Origin: Flavobacteriales bacterium
GTDB taxonomy: Bacteria; Bacteroidota; Bacteroidia; Flavobacteriales_D; Parvicellaceae
NCBI GenBank assembly: GCA_025210295.1
Contig: JAOASC010000028.1
Span: 186,001-250,000, forward strand
DNA: 64,000 bases
Direction of reading: 5' to 3'
Numbering within the stretch: position 1 is the stretch's first letter; each line of letters begins with the position of its first letter. Position numbers and translations under genes: made by a program. Shown here piece after piece: positions 27,622 through 45,930 of the stretch. The notes below the pieces were generated by a model that worked only from the letters and a program-made list of their open reading frames with translations, did no database searches and was not told where the DNA came from.

Positions 27622-30006
27622 CTAACGAATTATTACAACATGCCCTGTATATTCATGGGTAATATTGCTATAATCTTTTACTATATACTTGTAAATATAG
27701 GCGTCTATAGGTACTTCCTGCCCGTTTTCAGTTCCATCCCAAAATGCTCGAATACTTGATGATTCATAAATAATTTCTCCCCAACGGTTAAAAATATACA
27801 TTTGAGATTCTTTAATTCCTACAAATGAACCTTTAAATATATCGTTGACTCCATCTCCATTTGGAGAAAAAGCATTCGGAACATAGCCAAAATATTCTGG
27901 GTGAACAGTAAATGGTTTAACAATGGTGTCTGAGCATCCTAGCGCATCAGTAGCCACTAAAGTAACTTGGTATTCACCTTCTTGGGTATAGGTGTTTGTG
28001 GGGTTGGTAGTTGTAGCATATTCATTGTTATCAAAGTCCCAATAGTAAGTAATGGCATTTTGAGATTGATTACCAAAATAAATCGGTAAGTTTTCAATGC
28101 CTTCTAATGGAGAAGTATAAAAATTGGCTGTAGGTTTCTTCGTTGTAACTAATACAGAATCTCTAATATAATAAGTGTTACATGAATCGTATACATTTAC
28201 ATAAAAGTACTGCGATGTTTCAGGCGATACTTCTACTTCACTGGTTGTTTCATTATGGTCCCATTCGTAGCGATAATCTCCTGTTCCACTAGTTGCAATT
28301 ACGCCAACAACAGCGTCTCCAAACGGACATATTGTAGTATCTCCATAAGTAGTAGTAGATAGTGTATCTCGTATGATATCAATAAATACAGTATCGTGAT
28401 CTTGGTTCCCACATTCATCGGTAGCTGTAATAACATAGTAATGGTCAACTAAGGTTTGGACAGTTGTTGCAGCGGTGAACGTATTATTGGACCATGAATA
28501 ATTGATGTTTCCTGCGCCTCCAGTAGTAGAAGCTGAAATGTCGATGGGCGAATTTGGGCAATAAACAGTTGTATCATTACTCGCTGTTACAACTAAAGGT
28601 TCGAAAATAGCAACTGTTAAGGTTACACTGTCAATTACAGATTGTATACCGCAAGCATCGGTTACAGTGACCACATAGGTTGTTGTATCCGTTGGACTTG
28701 CCAGAATGGAAGAAGTATTGTCTCCAGTATTCCAGCTATAGTTGTATGCTGGAGTCCCTCCTGAAACGATAGGTTCAAGGGTAATCGAATTTCCTGTGAT
28801 ACATGATAGTTCTTGATCATTAGGCATGGTGAGTGATAGAGGAGGTTGGTCGACAATTTGAAGAGTCGTTGAGACAGTTGTTTGTTGGCCACATAATCCA
28901 CTATATGCCATGGTAATGGTTAATGTCTCAGTTCCCTCATTTAAAGCATCAGCTATGGTCTGTAATGAAAGGCTCGTTGTTGCTTGTCCTGGTTGAAAAG
29001 TAACAGTATTGGGTAAATTAGAATAATCGATTCCATTAGTTGCGCTTCCAGAATAATTGATTGGGTAAGTTTTACTGTAAGCAATTGAGTCTGATCGGGT
29101 AAAAGTCACAGTGGCATCTGAACAACCTTCAAGGAGTTGGTTAGAGTTAAGGTTTCCTAGTGAGTTCACTTGTGAAGAAGTCTGCATAGGTAATGGACTT
29201 GTAAAACTTCCCCCTTCTAGAAATACACCTGAGTCGTAAGAACCATCACCAACATCACATATTGCAATTTTGATATGGTAAGTTTGTCCACACTGAACAT
29301 TAGATGTAGCAGTTAAAACTGTAGTAAAGCCATCATACTGAACAACAGTGCTATTGTTGTTTTGAGGAGAAGAATTGCCATCTCCATTATTAATATAATA
29401 ACTGCTATTACTATTCGAATTGACATTATCTATGGTAACTGGTGTAGAGGTGCCTGGAACAACAGCTATATTTTGACTCCCAGAAATTCCAGGTCCGCTA
29501 ATCCAAAAAGCAAAAACATCATTGTACCCTGCATTGACGAATTCTGGATATTCATCTGAACCAAATACATAATTAAAAGAGACAACACTTCCTGTAGCGT
29601 CAAAATCAAATTCTAAAATAGCCGCATTGTGTGTGGAGTTGCCTCCTGCATAGGCCGCTAATTGTCCATCGCCTGGTTCATTGTTGTCTATCCCTGCACT
29701 AGCTTCATCATTCGGACCAAAAGGCCCTTCTTGAGCTCCAAAAAGAGAAGTTTGATTACGTACAGTACCAGTAGTCATAATAATACCACTTGATAAATTG
29801 ATGTTACAGTTGCTACCATCAAAATAGCCTATGGCGTCGTTAGAACCGGTATAAGTAATATTGTATGCATTAACACCAGAACCTAATAACGTATTTTGAA
29901 CAAGATTATTTGGGGAGACATTACTGTTGGTAACCAACTGAGCATGCGTTGCTAAGGAGGTTATAAAAACTAACAGTATCGTCAAATAATAATTCATATA
30001 AGTCAA
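27622..30006 (-). CDS. T9SS type B secreted protein with choice-of-anchor L and PKD domains
   Basis: 794 aa surface or secreted protein. Signal peptide to about 22 (SLATHAQ). Residues 25-280 match the choice-of-anchor L domain (NLVQNTLLGSGVNAYNITY, SGIIMTTGTV, FGSDEYPEFVNAGYNDVFAFW). A Calx-beta-like region (SATNGIDYSNLPNTVTFQPG) and Ig-like repeats with cysteine-bearing loops follow, then a PKD domain near 632-705 (YYWDFDNNEYATT), then the type B sorting tail from about 705 (VPNAFSPNGDGVNDIFKG, FNRWGEIIYES, YIYKYIV). Its start overlaps the preceding gene by 4 bases, so it is translated with an ECF sigma system. Confidence 0.92.
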   Translation of the reverse strand: MTYMNYYLTILLVFITSLATHAQLVTNSNVSPNNLVQNTLLGSGVNAYNITYTGSNDAIGYFDGSNCNINLSSGIIMTTGTVRNQTSLFGAQEGPFGPNDEASAGIDNNEPGDGQLAAYAGGNSTHNAAILEFDFDATGSVVSFNYVFGSDEYPEFVNAGYNDVFAFWISGPGISGSQNIAVVPGTSTPVTIDNVNSNSNSSYYINNGDGNSSPQNNNSTVVQYDGFTTVLTATSNVQCGQTYHIKIAICDVGDGSYDSGVFLEGGSFTSPLPMQTSSQVNSLGNLNSNQLLEGCSDATVTFTRSDSIAYSKTYPINYSGSATNGIDYSNLPNTVTFQPGQATTSLSLQTIADALNEGTETLTITMAYSGLCGQQTTVSTTLQIVDQPPLSLTMPNDQELSCITGNSITLEPIVSGGTPAYNYSWNTGDNTSSILASPTDTTTYVVTVTDACGIQSVIDSVTLTVAIFEPLVVTASNDTTVYCPNSPIDISASTTGGAGNINYSWSNNTFTAATTVQTLVDHYYVITATDECGNQDHDTVFIDIIRDTLSTTTYGDTTICPFGDAVVGVIATSGTGDYRYEWDHNETTSEVEVSPETSQYFYVNVYDSCNTYYIRDSVLVTTKKPTANFYTSPLEGIENLPIYFGNQSQNAITYYWDFDNNEYATTTNPTNTYTQEGEYQVTLVATDALGCSDTIVKPFTVHPEYFGYVPNAFSPNGDGVNDIFKGSFVGIKESQMYIFNRWGEIIYESSSIRAFWDGTENGQEVPIDAYIYKYIVKDYSNITHEYTGHVVIIR

Positions 30007-31475
30007 AAAATCTCTTGTTCTAATTTTGAGCTTTTAATACGTGGTTCAAAGTAATATTTAACACCAAAATTTGTACCAAAGTTATTAACGTCTTTTTGCA
30101 AGAAATATTCTTCTTTTGTAATGGAATTTCTATTTTGTTGGAAATTAAATTCTCCAAATAAATCGATAGATGGAGCTATTTTTACATTTCCAGCTAAAGA
30201 GGCTAATAGAGAAACATAAGAAGTTTTAAGCATTGAGTTTTTTCGAGAGAGCAATGCTGTTTCAATGCCTTTGTTATAGTAAATGTCGATGTTTTCATTG
30301 TTTGTATATCTTCTTAAATAGGTTCCATTGGCTCTAAATAAATGGTTGTACGCACATCCGACTTGAAGTAAAATGGAAAAATTAGAAGCCTTAAATTCAT
30401 ATCCAGTTTTCAAAGGTATTGTTAGATAGTGATAGGTGCTGTAAGTCTCGTCTTCAATTCGTTTAATAAGTTCTTCATCTTGAGCAGTATAGAATACATA
30501 GTGAGCAGAATCTATACCGTTGACTTGAACACCACTAATTTCTGAAATACCTAAAACATCAAGTAGATATTCGTTGTGATTAGATTCATAGATGTATTTA
30601 GGTTTATAGTCTCTAATTTTATTGTAAGTAATCCCGGTAGAGGTAACAATATTGTTCCAATCATAATTGATACGAGCACCAGCTTCAATACCACTACTCA
30701 CAAAACCTGTTTCTCTGTAAAAATCCCACCAGTTTTTATGGTACTTCTGCTCTAATATATTGTTGACATTGGTATGGTTATACGGTGAAATAAAAGCATC
30801 TGCTGAAAATTGACTTCTTTTAGATTTAGCATAATCATCATTCATCGTTTGTTGATGTGTGTAATTAACCAGTTGTTTTTGGGCTTCAAAAGCTAATAGT
30901 TGAGGCTGTTTTTTATCAAAACGTTGAGGCTCATTATTCGTTTGATTGGCTAACAATGGGCTGGTGATAGATTCTTTTAAGGAGTTTTTAGGAATGCTAT
31001 TATTGGTTGGGGCTGTTGTTCGAACCTCACTTTTGTTTTGCTTGTTTTTTACGCTAGTTACCTGATTTTTTGAACGGTACTCTGGTGTATTGTTATGACG
31101 GACTCTTGTACTCTCTTTTTGTTGGGGAGTATGGACAAGATTTTTTAGTTGTTGTTGTTGTTGTTGTTGTGGGAATTCAGATTCCTGAAGCGCTCTTTCT
31201 TGGTTTAATGGCGTAGTCACTGATTTAGAAGAGTTGTGCTCTTTTTGAACTATTTCTTGGTTTGTTGAATGCATTGATTCACCAGATAAATCCCATAAAG
31301 GAAAGGTTGAGGCGCCTATTAAAATGAGAACCACCAAAATTTTTTGTTTGTGAAAAAACCACAGGTTTTTAAAGAGCATCTTTTTACCTAAGGTCTTCCC
31401 TAAATTTTCTGAGGGAGTCACAGAAAAACCTTCAAGTTGGTCTTTTATTATATTGTCAAATTCATTATTTTTCAT
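30003..31475 (-). CDS. Dual-membrane-spanning anti-sigma-like protein
   Basis: 490 aa. A short N-terminal cytoplasmic part (about 45 aa, NEFDNIIKDQLEGFSVTPSE) is followed by one helix near 46-62 (ILVVLILIGASTFPLW). Then comes a disordered Gln/Ser/Asn-rich stretch of about 160 aa with a run of seven Gln, and finally a beta-rich domain from about 235 to the end that looks like an outer-membrane barrel (GIEAGARINYDW, LTIPLKTGYEFK, GTNFGVKYYFEPR). This order is that of Dma proteins of Bacteroides, where an anti-sigma domain, periplasmic linker and barrel cross both membranes. It overlaps the ECF sigma gene by 11 bases and the type B protein by 4. Assignment is inferred from layout. Confidence 0.75.
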   Translation of the reverse strand: MKNNEFDNIIKDQLEGFSVTPSENLGKTLGKKMLFKNLWFFHKQKILVVLILIGASTFPLWDLSGESMHSTNQEIVQKEHNSSKSVTTPLNQERALQESEFPQQQQQQQLKNLVHTPQQKESTRVRHNNTPEYRSKNQVTSVKNKQNKSEVRTTAPTNNSIPKNSLKESITSPLLANQTNNEPQRFDKKQPQLLAFEAQKQLVNYTHQQTMNDDYAKSKRSQFSADAFISPYNHTNVNNILEQKYHKNWWDFYRETGFVSSGIEAGARINYDWNNIVTSTGITYNKIRDYKPKYIYESNHNEYLLDVLGISEISGVQVNGIDSAHYVFYTAQDEELIKRIEDETYSTYHYLTIPLKTGYEFKASNFSILLQVGCAYNHLFRANGTYLRRYTNNENIDIYYNKGIETALLSRKNSMLKTSYVSLLASLAGNVKIAPSIDLFGEFNFQQNRNSITKEEYFLQKDVNNFGTNFGVKYYFEPRIKSSKLEQEIF

Positions 31476-32070
31476 TGTATCCTAAGACTTTTTTTAAGAA
31501 TTTTCTAGCTTTTGATAATTGTGATTTGGAGGTGTTAACAGATATGGATAAAATATCGGCAATTTCTTGATGAGAATAACCTTCTAAAACATATAAGTTG
31601 AATACAGTCCTGTAGCCAGATGGCAATTGGTTTAAGGCGTGCATTATTTTGTTTTGAGTTCCAGCAATGTCTTGAACTTCATTTTCTATTGTTTCATAAC
31701 CAATACGAGTCGTTTCAATATCTTCTGTATAATTATGTTTCTTGTTTTTTTTGTTAAGACTCAAAGTGGTGTTGACCACAATTGTTTTGATCCAATTGGT
31801 TAGCGAACCATCTCGTCTTCCCTCAAATTTTACAATGTTTTTGTAAATTTTAATAAACGCTTCTTGTAATGCATCTTCAGCTTCTGTTTTATTGTTAGAA
31901 TAACGCATAGCAATCCCCAACATTGCTCCACTATACCTGTTGAACAATTCATTTTGTGCAGAACGTTTACCTTGTTTGCAACCTGTTATTACATCATCTT
32001 CGGTTAACACCTTTGGGGGTGCAAGATAGTTAACTAAATTAATGTTATCAATAGCTAGGGTTTTGTTCAT
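31465..32070 (-). CDS. ECF RNA polymerase sigma factor
   Basis: 201 aa. Region 2 is NELFNRYSGAMLGIAMRYSNNKTEAEDALQEAFIKIYKN-like (residues 38-80, quoted in part: AEDALQEAFIKIY) and region 4 is LPSGYRTVFNLYVLEGYSHQ with EIADILSISVNTSKSQLSKAR near 150-190. First of three overlapping leftward genes, so it should direct its own operon including the T9SS-secreted protein, with the next gene as membrane-held inhibitor. Confidence 0.93.
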   Translation of the reverse strand: MNKTLAIDNINLVNYLAPPKVLTEDDVITGCKQGKRSAQNELFNRYSGAMLGIAMRYSNNKTEAEDALQEAFIKIYKNIVKFEGRRDGSLTNWIKTIVVNTTLSLNKKNKKHNYTEDIETTRIGYETIENEVQDIAGTQNKIMHALNQLPSGYRTVFNLYVLEGYSHQEIADILSISVNTSKSQLSKARKFLKKVLGYNEK

Positions 32071-32280
32071 AGGTATTTTTTGACAAATTGTATTTGATTT
32101 GATCTTACTGTAATAACTATTGGAAAATGAAATGGTTGCTTAATTGATGGAAGACTTGTTTTTTATAAAAAAAAGATTAAATTTACGTGAGCATTGTCTA
32201 AAATTAGCAATCCCGTTGTTTTTTTATTAAAAGTATAATGGGTTGATTTTTAGCTTGTTCAATAACTAAAACTACTACAG

Positions 32281-32928
32281 ATGATCAAAAAAATAATTGC
32301 TATCTCTTTAGCTGTGGCTTTGGGCGCGTACAGTTGTAATAAAGAGAAAAAACTTGCGAAATTAGAGGGGAATAATAAAGAGTATAAAGAAGCTAATTTT
32401 GTGTTAGATGAAAATATTTCTTTAACGATACCTAATACTATTTTTTCTGCAGGAGGTTTTGCTAACTGTTGGACACTCCTTGGGTTAGAGATAGATCATG
32501 AAGCTTTTATTCCTACTGAAAATCCTAATCCTTATGCTCACTTAACAAGAAACTTAAGACCATTAGCTGTGGAAATGGAGTTATCTCAGGTTGAACTAGA
32601 AGAATGCGGGTTTGCATTTTTAAAAGATGTAGAGGTATATCTATGCTTAGAAGGTGTTACCGATTTTAATGCTTTTACTTTTAGAGATGCAACTAATCCA
32701 CAGGCTGACTATAATGCTGTAAAAATAGGAGAACACTATAATATCGCTGATAATGTAGGTTCTAAAATAACATTGAATGTAGATACCAATGCAGTGTTGG
32801 ATAAATTTATTCATGCAGGTAATTTTCAAACTTACACGAAAATGGTAATCGATAAAGGATTTACCGATGACTATGCTATTATTCGAACAAAAATGAAAAT
32901 AGCAGCTCAATTAGATAATTACGAATAA
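32281..32928 (+). CDS. Lipoprotein of unknown function
   Basis: 215 aa. Lipobox AYSCNKE near residue 19. The mature part has three further cysteines (NCWTLL, EECGF, YLCLEG) and mixed alpha/beta composition, with no recognised domain. It stands between the divergent ECF operon and the HlyIII-like gene. Not obviously cotranscribed with either. Confidence 0.65.
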   Translation: MIKKIIAISLAVALGAYSCNKEKKLAKLEGNNKEYKEANFVLDENISLTIPNTIFSAGGFANCWTLLGLEIDHEAFIPTENPNPYAHLTRNLRPLAVEMELSQVELEECGFAFLKDVEVYLCLEGVTDFNAFTFRDATNPQADYNAVKIGEHYNIADNVGSKITLNVDTNAVLDKFIHAGNFQTYTKMVIDKGFTDDYAIIRTKMKIAAQLDNYE

Positions 32929-43675: not shown

Positions 43676-45361
43676 CTAAATTTTCAAAATTAACTTTTTT
43701 AGTTCATCTAACGAAAGGTTCTTAATTTCATTGGTTTGAAAAGCTGAATTATTGCTAATAGCATCCTTAAAACTCGCTTTATTCACCAAGAACAATTGTT
43801 GACCTTCTTTTATTCCAATAATACTGATGTTCGATTGAGGATTATAAGAAAAGTAATTACTCTTGTTGAGGTAATAAGTAAAGGAAGCGTTACGTTTGCT
43901 TTCGATAACATAAATTTTTTCAAAAGAAATGGTATCATTACTGGTATTCAAAAAAAGTGGTTGTTCAACAGCTTTTAATGCGATACTATTTTCAGGTGGA
44001 CTCGGCATTTTTGGTCGATTGATAATTGGTCGATCGAAATTAAAAACACCAAAACTAGCAATTGGAGCAGCCAAAGCAACAGCAACTGTAGAAATGACTT
44101 CTTTCGCTTTGTTTTTCAGCTGATCTCGTTCGTCAAATCGCTTCTTTTTTTCTTCATAATCTTCTTTTAATCGTTGTGCCTTTTCTTCTTTTTGATCAAG
44201 AATAGCAACATATTTGGCATACTTATTACCATATATATGTTGTGCTTTTTCCCAATCTTTTCCTGTATATACAGGTTGAGCAACTACCAGTTCAACATCG
44301 GTTTTATTTTTTAAAACTAATTCATACGTCATTGCTTTATGGTGTGGCCTTAATTGTATATCATCCCATTCTGTATTGTAGATGTACTGTATGTTTTTAC
44401 TTGATTTTATTGGGGCAAATTGAACTGATCCAAAGCTTGCTAATTCTGGAAATTCGTATTTGTCAATATCTAATGTAAAGCTCTCCTCTTTATTGATTAA
44501 TTTCTTGGGAGCTACAGGTTCTGTTGTTAGATGTTTGTGAAGTTCCTTTTGAGCTCTTTCCCATTTTTGATTGGCAATATTTTGTTCTTTGTATGCTAAT
44601 TTCCAACTAGTTTCATCAAAGGAATGTGTTTTGTCTTGTTCAAATGTTGTTGTTTGTTTGAGTGTATTACTCATTAAAAAATTCCATTTTTTAGAAATCG
44701 TATCTAAGTGATAAAAATTAAAATCTGGAGAGCTTATAGAAGCGTTAAATGCGATAGCTAATGGAGTTGTTTTATTAATAGCAATTGGGAGGTTGTTTAA
44801 GGTATTACCTTTTAGTTGAAGCATGCCTCCAGACTCAAAAGTATAAGTCATTCCCGCACTATCATATTCCATTGGTATACCGCTAATAAGAAAATCAACG
44901 GGGTCATTGTACACACTAAGTTCTAATGCTACAGTATCTCTTACAGTTGTGCCATCAGAGTAAACAAATGCATTTTTAGGAATAGTTAGCGTTGCTCCAT
45001 TGTAGTGGATTTGTTGCGCTTTTTGGGGAAGTATTAAAAATGTTTTAAATGGTATTTGGAGGTTCTTTAAAGGTTTATTTATGCATGATGTTTCTTCTTT
45101 AAATGGAACAGGCGTTTTGTTAATGTGGGTAGAGTCTTTCTTTTTTATAGCTATTGTAGATGAGTCACTTGATTTTAAAGTTGTTTTTGGGGCGAATACA
45201 AATGTTAAAACTGCTATAGATACTAACGAAACAGAGATAAAGAACCAGTTTTGTTGGTAAAACGGTTTCATAGCTTTTTGCAGACGCATGATTTCATTAA
45301 AATCTTTCTTTTGATTGATTTTTGAAGGCTCTAGTTGGGGTCTATCGTAATTAATTTTCAT
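43676..45361 (-). CDS. Single-pass membrane protein, probable anti-sigma factor partner
   Basis: 561 aa. A cytoplasmic N-terminus of about 38 residues (MKINYDRPQLEPSKINQKKD) is followed by one helix near 39-57 (FFISVSLVSIAVLTFVFAP) and a large periplasmic part. Residues near 115-190 resemble a Bacteroidota beta module (GATLTIPKNAFVYSDGTTV, DPVDFLISGIPMEYDSAG, FESGGMLQL). A coiled coil rich in Glu/Lys lies near 395-430. Its ATG overlaps the stop of the ECF sigma gene by 4 bases, the usual sigma/anti-sigma arrangement. No zinc ZAS motif, so the inhibitor role is inferred. Confidence 0.75.
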   Translation of the reverse strand: MKINYDRPQLEPSKINQKKDFNEIMRLQKAMKPFYQQNWFFISVSLVSIAVLTFVFAPKTTLKSSDSSTIAIKKKDSTHINKTPVPFKEETSCINKPLKNLQIPFKTFLILPQKAQQIHYNGATLTIPKNAFVYSDGTTVRDTVALELSVYNDPVDFLISGIPMEYDSAGMTYTFESGGMLQLKGNTLNNLPIAINKTTPLAIAFNASISSPDFNFYHLDTISKKWNFLMSNTLKQTTTFEQDKTHSFDETSWKLAYKEQNIANQKWERAQKELHKHLTTEPVAPKKLINKEESFTLDIDKYEFPELASFGSVQFAPIKSSKNIQYIYNTEWDDIQLRPHHKAMTYELVLKNKTDVELVVAQPVYTGKDWEKAQHIYGNKYAKYVAILDQKEEKAQRLKEDYEEKKKRFDERDQLKNKAKEVISTVAVALAAPIASFGVFNFDRPIINRPKMPSPPENSIALKAVEQPLFLNTSNDTISFEKIYVIESKRNASFTYYLNKSNYFSYNPQSNISIIGIKEGQQLFLVNKASFKDAISNNSAFQTNEIKNLSLDELKKLILKI

Positions 45362-45930
45362 ACTGCAAACTTTGTTTTTAATTTACCTAGTATTCGATGT
45401 GCTTTTACCTTGGCATTATTTTCTTTAATGTTTAAAATTTCAGCTATTTCTTTGAAGCTTCGGTTTTCAAAATACCTTAATTCAATAATTGAAATTTCCT
45501 CTTTTTTTAAAGATAAAATGGCCTTTTTTAGTTTGGTTTTTTCTTCTTCTGAGAAAACTTCTTCATGAGCTTCATCAATTAAGAAAGGTTTAAAAGCTAA
45601 AGAATCAATGTTAATTGTTTGTTCCGCTTTTTGATCTTTAAATGATTGGTAAACGACACTCATTGCAATTCGATATAACCAACTACCAAATGGAACACCT
45701 TTGTATTCATACTTTTTGATGTTGGTCAGTGCTTTTAAAAAAACTTGACTAGTTAAGTCATCAGCAATTTCTTCAGTCGCAACTCTCTGGTAGCAATACC
45801 TGTAAATTTGTTCATAATATTTGTGGTATAAACTTTCAAAGTATTTAGGGTTTTTCTGAGCAGCTTTAATGATAGCTAACTCAGTGGTTAATTGTTGTTT
45901 TGTATGATGATATTTTTTAGAAATATTCAC
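45358..45930 (-). CDS. ECF RNA polymerase sigma factor
   Basis: 190 aa. Region 2: YFESLYHKYYEQIYRYCYQR, EEIADDLTSQVFLKALTNI, FGSWLYRIAMSVVYQSFKD. Region 4: ILSLKKEEISIIELRYFENRS and FKEIAEILNIKENNAKVKAHRI. First gene of a leftward group with the membrane protein that follows, a small secreted protein and the DUF4846 lipoprotein. Confidence 0.93.
   Translation of the reverse strand: MNISKKYHHTKQQLTTELAIIKAAQKNPKYFESLYHKYYEQIYRYCYQRVATEEIADDLTSQVFLKALTNIKKYEYKGVPFGSWLYRIAMSVVYQSFKDQKAEQTINIDSLAFKPFLIDEAHEEVFSEEEKTKLKKAILSLKKEEISIIELRYFENRSFKEIAEILNIKENNAKVKAHRILGKLKTKFAV

Follow-up and report, generated by a model that had tools for sequence, protein, structure and literature searches.

Three minus-strand genes in a row, encoding an ECF sigma factor, a 490-aa protein, and a type IX secretion system (T9SS) type-B surface protein, probably form an autoregulated ECF operon whose Reo/Dma-like anti-sigma factor is anchored in the outer membrane and whose output is the T9SS protein. 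They lie within the window, i.e., the whole 64,000-nucleotide stretch of DNA that was analyzed, and the features of the locus are as follows.

32281..32928 (+), divergent predicted lipoprotein, 215 aa; neighbor of the pair in eight loci, also occurs without the pair
32115..32140 (-), predicted ECF promoter AGCAACC-N16-GTT, 44 nt ahead of the sigma factor ATG; same pattern and spacing in orthologues
31465..32070 (-), ECF sigma factor, 201 aa; PF08281 2.9e-18, PF04542 2.9e-13, TIGR02937 95.6 bits versus a cut-off of 42.9
30003..31475 (-), predicted anti-sigma factor, 490 aa; immediately 3' of the sigma gene at every family locus; AlphaFold2 model
31341..31475 (-), residues 1-45, predicted sigma-binding cytoplasmic N-terminus; low-confidence helices, N-terminal profile likeness to CTD-headed anti-sigma factors
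31290..31340 (-), residues 46-62, single predicted inner-membrane helix; hydropathy, positive charges on the N-terminal side
30819..31289 (-), residues 63-219, disordered Q/N/S-rich linker; pLDDT <50 nearly throughout
30042..30818 (-), residues 220-478, predicted 8-stranded outer-membrane barrel; AlphaFold2 strands and structure matches
27622..29997 (-), choice-of-anchor L/Calx-beta/SprB repeat/PKD surface protein with a T9SS type-B CTD, 791 aa; NF038133 255 bits, TIGR04131 56.8 bits versus a cut-off of 35, PF13585 4.8e-15

The Pfam and TIGR02937 matches bear out the identity of the ECF sigma factor, which a first-pass annotation had assigned from the DNA alone; at the level of the ECF group, the best curated model is TIGR02985, which scores below its own cut-off. 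The same annotation gave overlaps of 11 and 4 bases among the three genes. The 11-base overlap between the genes for the sigma factor and the 490-aa protein stands (it is 8 bases in the genus), but the T9SS gene overlaps its neighbor by 4 bases only if it starts at a TTG at 30006, whereas with the ATG at 29997 the protein begins with a good signal peptide (MNYYLTILLVFITSLATHA) and the two genes are 5 nt apart. The T9SS gene thus likely starts at the ATG, and the TTG is an unlikely start; in the orthologous pairs checked, the two genes are separated by gaps of 3 to 15 nt.

Among the relatives compared, which are mostly draft genomes, the sigma and anti-sigma genes are adjacent in 11/11 family loci with a recognizable pair, an arrangement that is therefore beyond chance. 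Orthologues of the sigma factor are 55 to 81% identical, and those of the 490-aa protein are 22 to 46% identical, with values dropping to 22 to 28% in some. A further nine remote loci of the order contain an ECF gene followed by a gene for a long protein whose C-terminal region matches the window family in a profile search; it is these profile matches that label the remote open reading frames as barrel ended, and Pfam supports only part of them.

The AlphaFold2 model of the 490-aa protein was built from a shallow alignment of seven orthologue rows, and its mean pLDDT is 52, a value that reflects the large disordered part of the chain. At the N-terminus, helices are modeled at residues 4-14 and 23-56 with pLDDT values of about 40 to 46, and the motif NxxxFHKxK is conserved ahead of the membrane helix in the family. 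Residues 61 to 220 are structureless; the linker of about 160 residues contains 24 Gln, 17 Asn, and 17 Ser residues, including seven consecutive Gln, and among orthologues it ranges from 160 to 212 residues with a varying composition and, in those compared, no conservation of the Gln run. Beyond it, eight strands (221-230, 264-273, 276-290, 345-362, 366-383, 419-434, 437-448, and 459-475), mostly with pLDDT values of 70 to 88, are of membrane-spanning length. Residues 217-478 match solved outer-membrane barrels with VIA Z scores of 18.3 (OmpA model), 17.6 (NspA), and 16.3 (OmpW), and the best Foldseek E value is 1.9e-7. A Pfam search returned no recognized anti-sigma domain, and there was no match to the PorP/SprF profile PF11751 at E values up to 1, in keeping with 8 predicted strands rather than 14. 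The first-pass description of one inner-membrane helix, a Gln/Asn/Ser linker of some 160 residues with seven Gln, and a barrel-like end on the plan of the Dma anti-sigma factors is upheld by hydropathy, composition, disorder, and a structure prediction that returned an outer-membrane-type barrel and not a soluble fold.

This arrangement resembles that of EcfO-Reo of Bacteroides and Phocaeicola and of Dma1/Dma2-Das1/Das2 of B. thetaiotaomicron, in which an ECF sigma factor is encoded next to a long anti-sigma factor whose cytoplasmic end is followed by one inner-membrane region, a periplasmic stretch, and, at the C-terminus, an outer-membrane barrel; the likeness is one of architecture (PMC13114119, PMC9308784, PMC13088901). 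Reo extends from the cytoplasm to the surface through all compartments, controls EcfO, and likely senses outer-membrane stress (PMC13114119, PMC9308784). Neighboring genes are part of the regulon in these systems, and deletion of dma2 strongly raises the expression of das2 and of the neighboring bt_1555-1557 (PMC13088901). Unlike them, the window comes from a different order of the Bacteroidota, and the neighboring genes encode a T9SS type-B protein and a lipoprotein that has no match to NigD. The lipoprotein, which is family restricted, was considered as a NigD analogue within the regulon and rejected, as it persists in genera without the pair, lies apart from the pair in several genomes, and has no ECF promoter by inspection. 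It has no Pfam match at E values up to 1 and a weak fold model (pLDDT 54), and we do not regard it as part of the mechanism.

The pattern RGCAACY-N16-GTY, with fixed spacing, is found upstream of 11/11 orthologous sigma genes, and there are three matches in the whole window, with 0.56 expected by chance. A -35 GCAAC and a -10 GT constitute an ECF-type layout, for which autoregulation by the sigma factor is the natural reading. Together with gene order, this conserved autoregulatory promoter supports placement of the T9SS gene in the operon of the sigma factor, and the few or no bases between the genes suggest that it would be coinduced.

The product of the T9SS gene has the C-terminal Bac_Flav_CTERM/CHU_C domain and, by inspection, the signal peptide of a T9SS type-B cargo protein. 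Its earlier designation as a choice-of-anchor L/PKD protein of T9SS type B agrees with a choice_anch_L match of 255 bits, a PKD domain, and a type-B CTD, above the curated cut-offs. The gene directly follows the pair in the window genus (61 to 74% identity) and in one genome of another genus, G015 (52%). Two genera (g3 and g8) have the pair but no such gene next to it, for which reason the T9SS gene is most simply read as an output and looks like an accessory rather than something that every such operon contains. In one relative (G007), one clean deletion took the sigma gene, the anti-sigma gene, and nearly all of the T9SS gene and left the promoter region; another (G011) retains a T9SS orthologue, upstream of which lies a transposase-like fragment, and no pair was detected in that genome. 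The first-pass suggestion of feedback from surface display or T9SS export to transcription is thus supported in respect of operon membership, but not in respect of feedback at this locus, given the two genera in which the pair occurs without the gene.

From the observed gene order and promoter conservation and from the predicted barrel fold, we infer a mechanism in which residues 1-45 of the 490-aa protein would hold the sigma factor at the inner membrane, the 160-residue flexible tether would cross the periplasm, and the 8-stranded barrel would be inserted in the outer membrane. Disturbance of the outer end, whether by a ligand, by stress on the outer membrane, or by failure of the barrel to insert, would release the hold on the sigma factor, probably by proteolysis or by a pull through the tether. 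The freed sigma factor would then transcribe its own operon from RGCAACY-N16-GTY, and induction would yield more sigma factor, more anti-sigma factor for a fast reset, and the type-B surface protein as output.

Other ECF-linked proteins with a membrane helix have T9SS-related domains at their outer ends. Twenty regions, which cover most of the ECF genes of the same genome, were inspected and include the following.

L218:4445-5746 (contig C46), ECF-linked protein, 433 aa; PKD and CHU_C, PF13585 4.9e-11, TIGR04131 27.2 bits, under the cut-off
L219:4045-5130 (contig C44), ECF-linked protein, 361 aa; PKD and CHU_C, PF13585 3.2e-16, TIGR04131 47.5 bits, over the cut-off
L227:2358-4205 (contig C28), ECF-linked protein, 615 aa; one helix and a C-terminal PorP/SprF domain, PF11751 9.1e-21

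The L218 and L219 proteins are built alike: each starts with a short N-terminus and one membrane helix, and a linker then leads to PKD domains and a CHU_C type-B T9SS domain. At the best 30 loci for L218-type sigma factors, from a search of 60 relatives, 28 have a CTD-ended protein of 407 to 473 aa encoded directly downstream, as judged by matching its C-terminus to a CTD profile that was built locally, and the remaining 2 loci are truncated. These proteins nearly always have a membrane helix, mostly near residues 45 to 50. Pfam analysis of ten of them found PKD in all ten; CHU_C exceeds the gathering score in four, falls short of it in five, and is missing from one, so that some families have a clear type-B CTD and in others it has diverged. 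At the 20 next-best ECF loci, the downstream protein is CTD ended (301 to 392 aa) in 17, and in total there are about 48 loci with CTD-headed anti-sigma factors, spread over many families of the order. A PorP/SprF-ended protein directly follows the ECF gene in 12/12 loci having both genes, with a 4-nt overlap or a 3- to 4-nt gap; at L227, the next gene apparently encodes another PorP/SprF protein. The wider idea of T9SS-coupled anti-sigma signaling, which was implicit in the first-pass annotation, gains strong indirect support from these fusions to type-B CTDs or PorP/SprF. We found no paper describing T9SS-domain-headed anti-sigma factors in the open-license literature, which is weak evidence that ECF-linked, anti-sigma-like proteins whose own C-terminus consists of PKD and a type-B T9SS signal domain are new here.

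The L218 and L219 systems are like that of the window in the ECF clade to which they belong, in a similar N-terminal region and membrane helix, and in a related -35 GCAACY promoter; they differ in having PKD and a T9SS type-B signal domain in place of the barrel and in the -10 box or the spacing of the promoter. In comparisons of N-terminal profiles, the CTD-headed groups match one another with a probability of 98%, and the remote barrel group matches the CTD-headed groups with probabilities of 95 to 96%. The window group (first 44 residues) matches the L218 group with a moderate probability of 86% (hhalign score of 27.4, compared with a maximum of 17.5 among 100 column shuffles), and the N-terminus of the PorP group resembles none of the others. 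A 94-row sigma factor tree places the barrel-headed and CTD-headed ECF factors in one clade (96/80), and the window group forms one clade (100/99); no fewer than three changes are required for the remote barrel-headed rows, and the PorP group falls elsewhere. The likeness of the N-terminal profiles and the placement in the tree suggest that outer ends have probably been exchanged on a common regulator core, at least among the barrel-headed and CTD-headed groups.

Several further ECF loci were noted. The window encodes a second ECF sigma factor (190 aa, 45358-45930, minus strand), which falls outside the clade of the barrel-headed and CTD-headed systems and whose gene overlaps by 4 bases that for a 561-aa protein (43676-45361, minus strand) with hydrophobic helices near residues 40 and 422 and no Pfam match. 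Elsewhere in the same genome, L225 (C28:271000-279000) has an ECF factor of the remote barrel group and an anti-sigma reading frame that is apparently split into pieces of 242 aa and 153 aa, with a 476-aa PKD/type-A T9SS protein encoded ahead. Proteins with a T9SS type-A sorting domain are also encoded beside ECF/barrel-ended pairs in four genomes (L175:2342-3523, L179:1382-2809, L176:6876-9308, and L177:5368-8655). An analogous linkage is seen in another genome at L180:3678-6823, where an ECF gene is followed by genes for a 190-aa helix-containing protein, a 316-aa protein, and a 373-aa type-B T9SS protein.

Upstream of the L218-type sigma genes, GGCAACC-N15-CGTC or a close variant is present in 26/30, and L219-type sigma genes mostly have TGCAACC-N17-GTC (15/18). 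A GCAAC-type promoter was found for none of 12 loci of the PorP group, none of 8 of the remote barrel group, and 1 of 14 other ECF genes of the genome. Within the genome of the window, 56 of 73 matches to RGCAACY-N16-GTY were listed, 13 of them with a C before GTY. Among the matches listed, 9/13 of these CGTY sites and 0/43 of the others lie within the span upstream of a CHU_C gene, against a chance expectation of 0.04 (Fisher P = 9e-8), at 26 to 141 nt by the start codons chosen; the T9SS gene of the window, which is reached via its own operon, was excluded from this count. Since their -10 box matches, we infer that the CGTY promoters before CHU_C genes belong to the L218-type sigma factor. 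Most CGTY sites in G005 also lie directly upstream of genes for large secreted proteins, and many are interrupted by contig ends. For the sigma factor of the window, only its own operon was recognized as a target among the matches listed (56 of 73), with none of the 43 non-CGTY sites directly before a CHU_C gene. There is a precedent for CGTY promoters in the SM6 promoters of Flavobacterium psychrophilum, which are ECF type with a CGT -10 box and precede gldN, porU, and an ECF/anti-sigma pair; that paper gives no anti-sigma architecture, and the likeness to the systems described here is one of promoter only (PMC9723704).

The surface protein might also be an input, docking on the barrel or sharing its export route, so that the anti-sigma factor would report type-B display or export in a feedback loop. 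The gene does share the operon in the genus and in G015, PorP-like barrels bind type-B CTD proteins (PMC9143113), and PorA, a surface CTD protein, feeds PorXY-SigP (PMC7712824). By analogy with the sister systems, whose anti-sigma factors bear a type-B CTD or a PorP/SprF barrel themselves, feedback from type-B display is a possibility at this locus that their T9SS domains make more plausible. The joint loss of all three genes in G007 points the same way, but the loss of neighbors in one deletion is weak evidence. Given the pairs without a T9SS gene in g3 and g8 and a barrel that has 8 strands and no PorP/SprF match, whereas PorP-like proteins are 14 stranded (PMC9143113), we regard this added role as somewhat unlikely.

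The 490-aa protein could instead sense barrel assembly only, its barrel serving as a decoy BAM substrate and the T9SS gene being an unrelated hitchhiker. Strong variation of the anti-sigma factor beside a conserved sigma factor would fit such a role, as would the induction of the EcfO/Reo response by the BamA inhibitor Bacteroidetocin A (PMC9308784). However, the order of sigma factor, anti-sigma factor, and T9SS gene is maintained in two genera with 52 to 74% identity of the T9SS protein, which makes this reading unlikely. It is very improbable that the C-terminal beta domain of an inner-membrane anti-sigma factor stays in the periplasm: its outer-membrane placement comes from prediction only, but its predicted strands are long enough to span a membrane and its best structure matches are the outer-membrane barrels OmpA, NspA, and OmpW, at Z scores of 16 to 18. 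Least credible is that the adjacent genes have no functional connection and that the 490-aa protein exerts no control over the sigma factor, as the lack of a recognized anti-sigma domain might suggest, since the genes overlap or adjoin at every family locus and remote loci show the same arrangement. The reading that we prefer is therefore the autoregulated operon with an outer-membrane-anchored anti-sigma factor and the T9SS protein as output.

More tentatively, the window may represent one branch of a family of ECF switches with exchangeable anti-sigma outer ends (a barrel, PKD with a type-B domain, or, in a separate sigma clade, PorP/SprF). The type-B-headed kind would gauge type-B export, since its own CTD would compete with cargo for the translocon or anchor while its sigma factor transcribes type-B cargo genes, and the window system would be a sibling with a barrel head that produces a type-B protein of its own. 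The best-described regulation of the T9SS so far is that by PorXY-SigP in Porphyromonas gingivalis, where an ECF sigma factor is likewise tied to the T9SS and influenced by a surface CTD protein, PorA (PMC4800418, PMC7712824); unlike the control proposed for the sigma factor of the window, that of SigP is by a two-component system and not by a membrane-spanning anti-sigma factor. Because the sister anti-sigma factors themselves carry a type IX secretion tag, Flavobacteriales may directly monitor the condition of their own surface. If this is true, the outer-membrane-anchored anti-sigma plan of gut Bacteroides would be general in the Bacteroidota, with interchangeable outer ends, some of them T9SS parts, and there would be a concrete answer to how production of type-B surface proteins is matched to the capacity for their export and anchoring.
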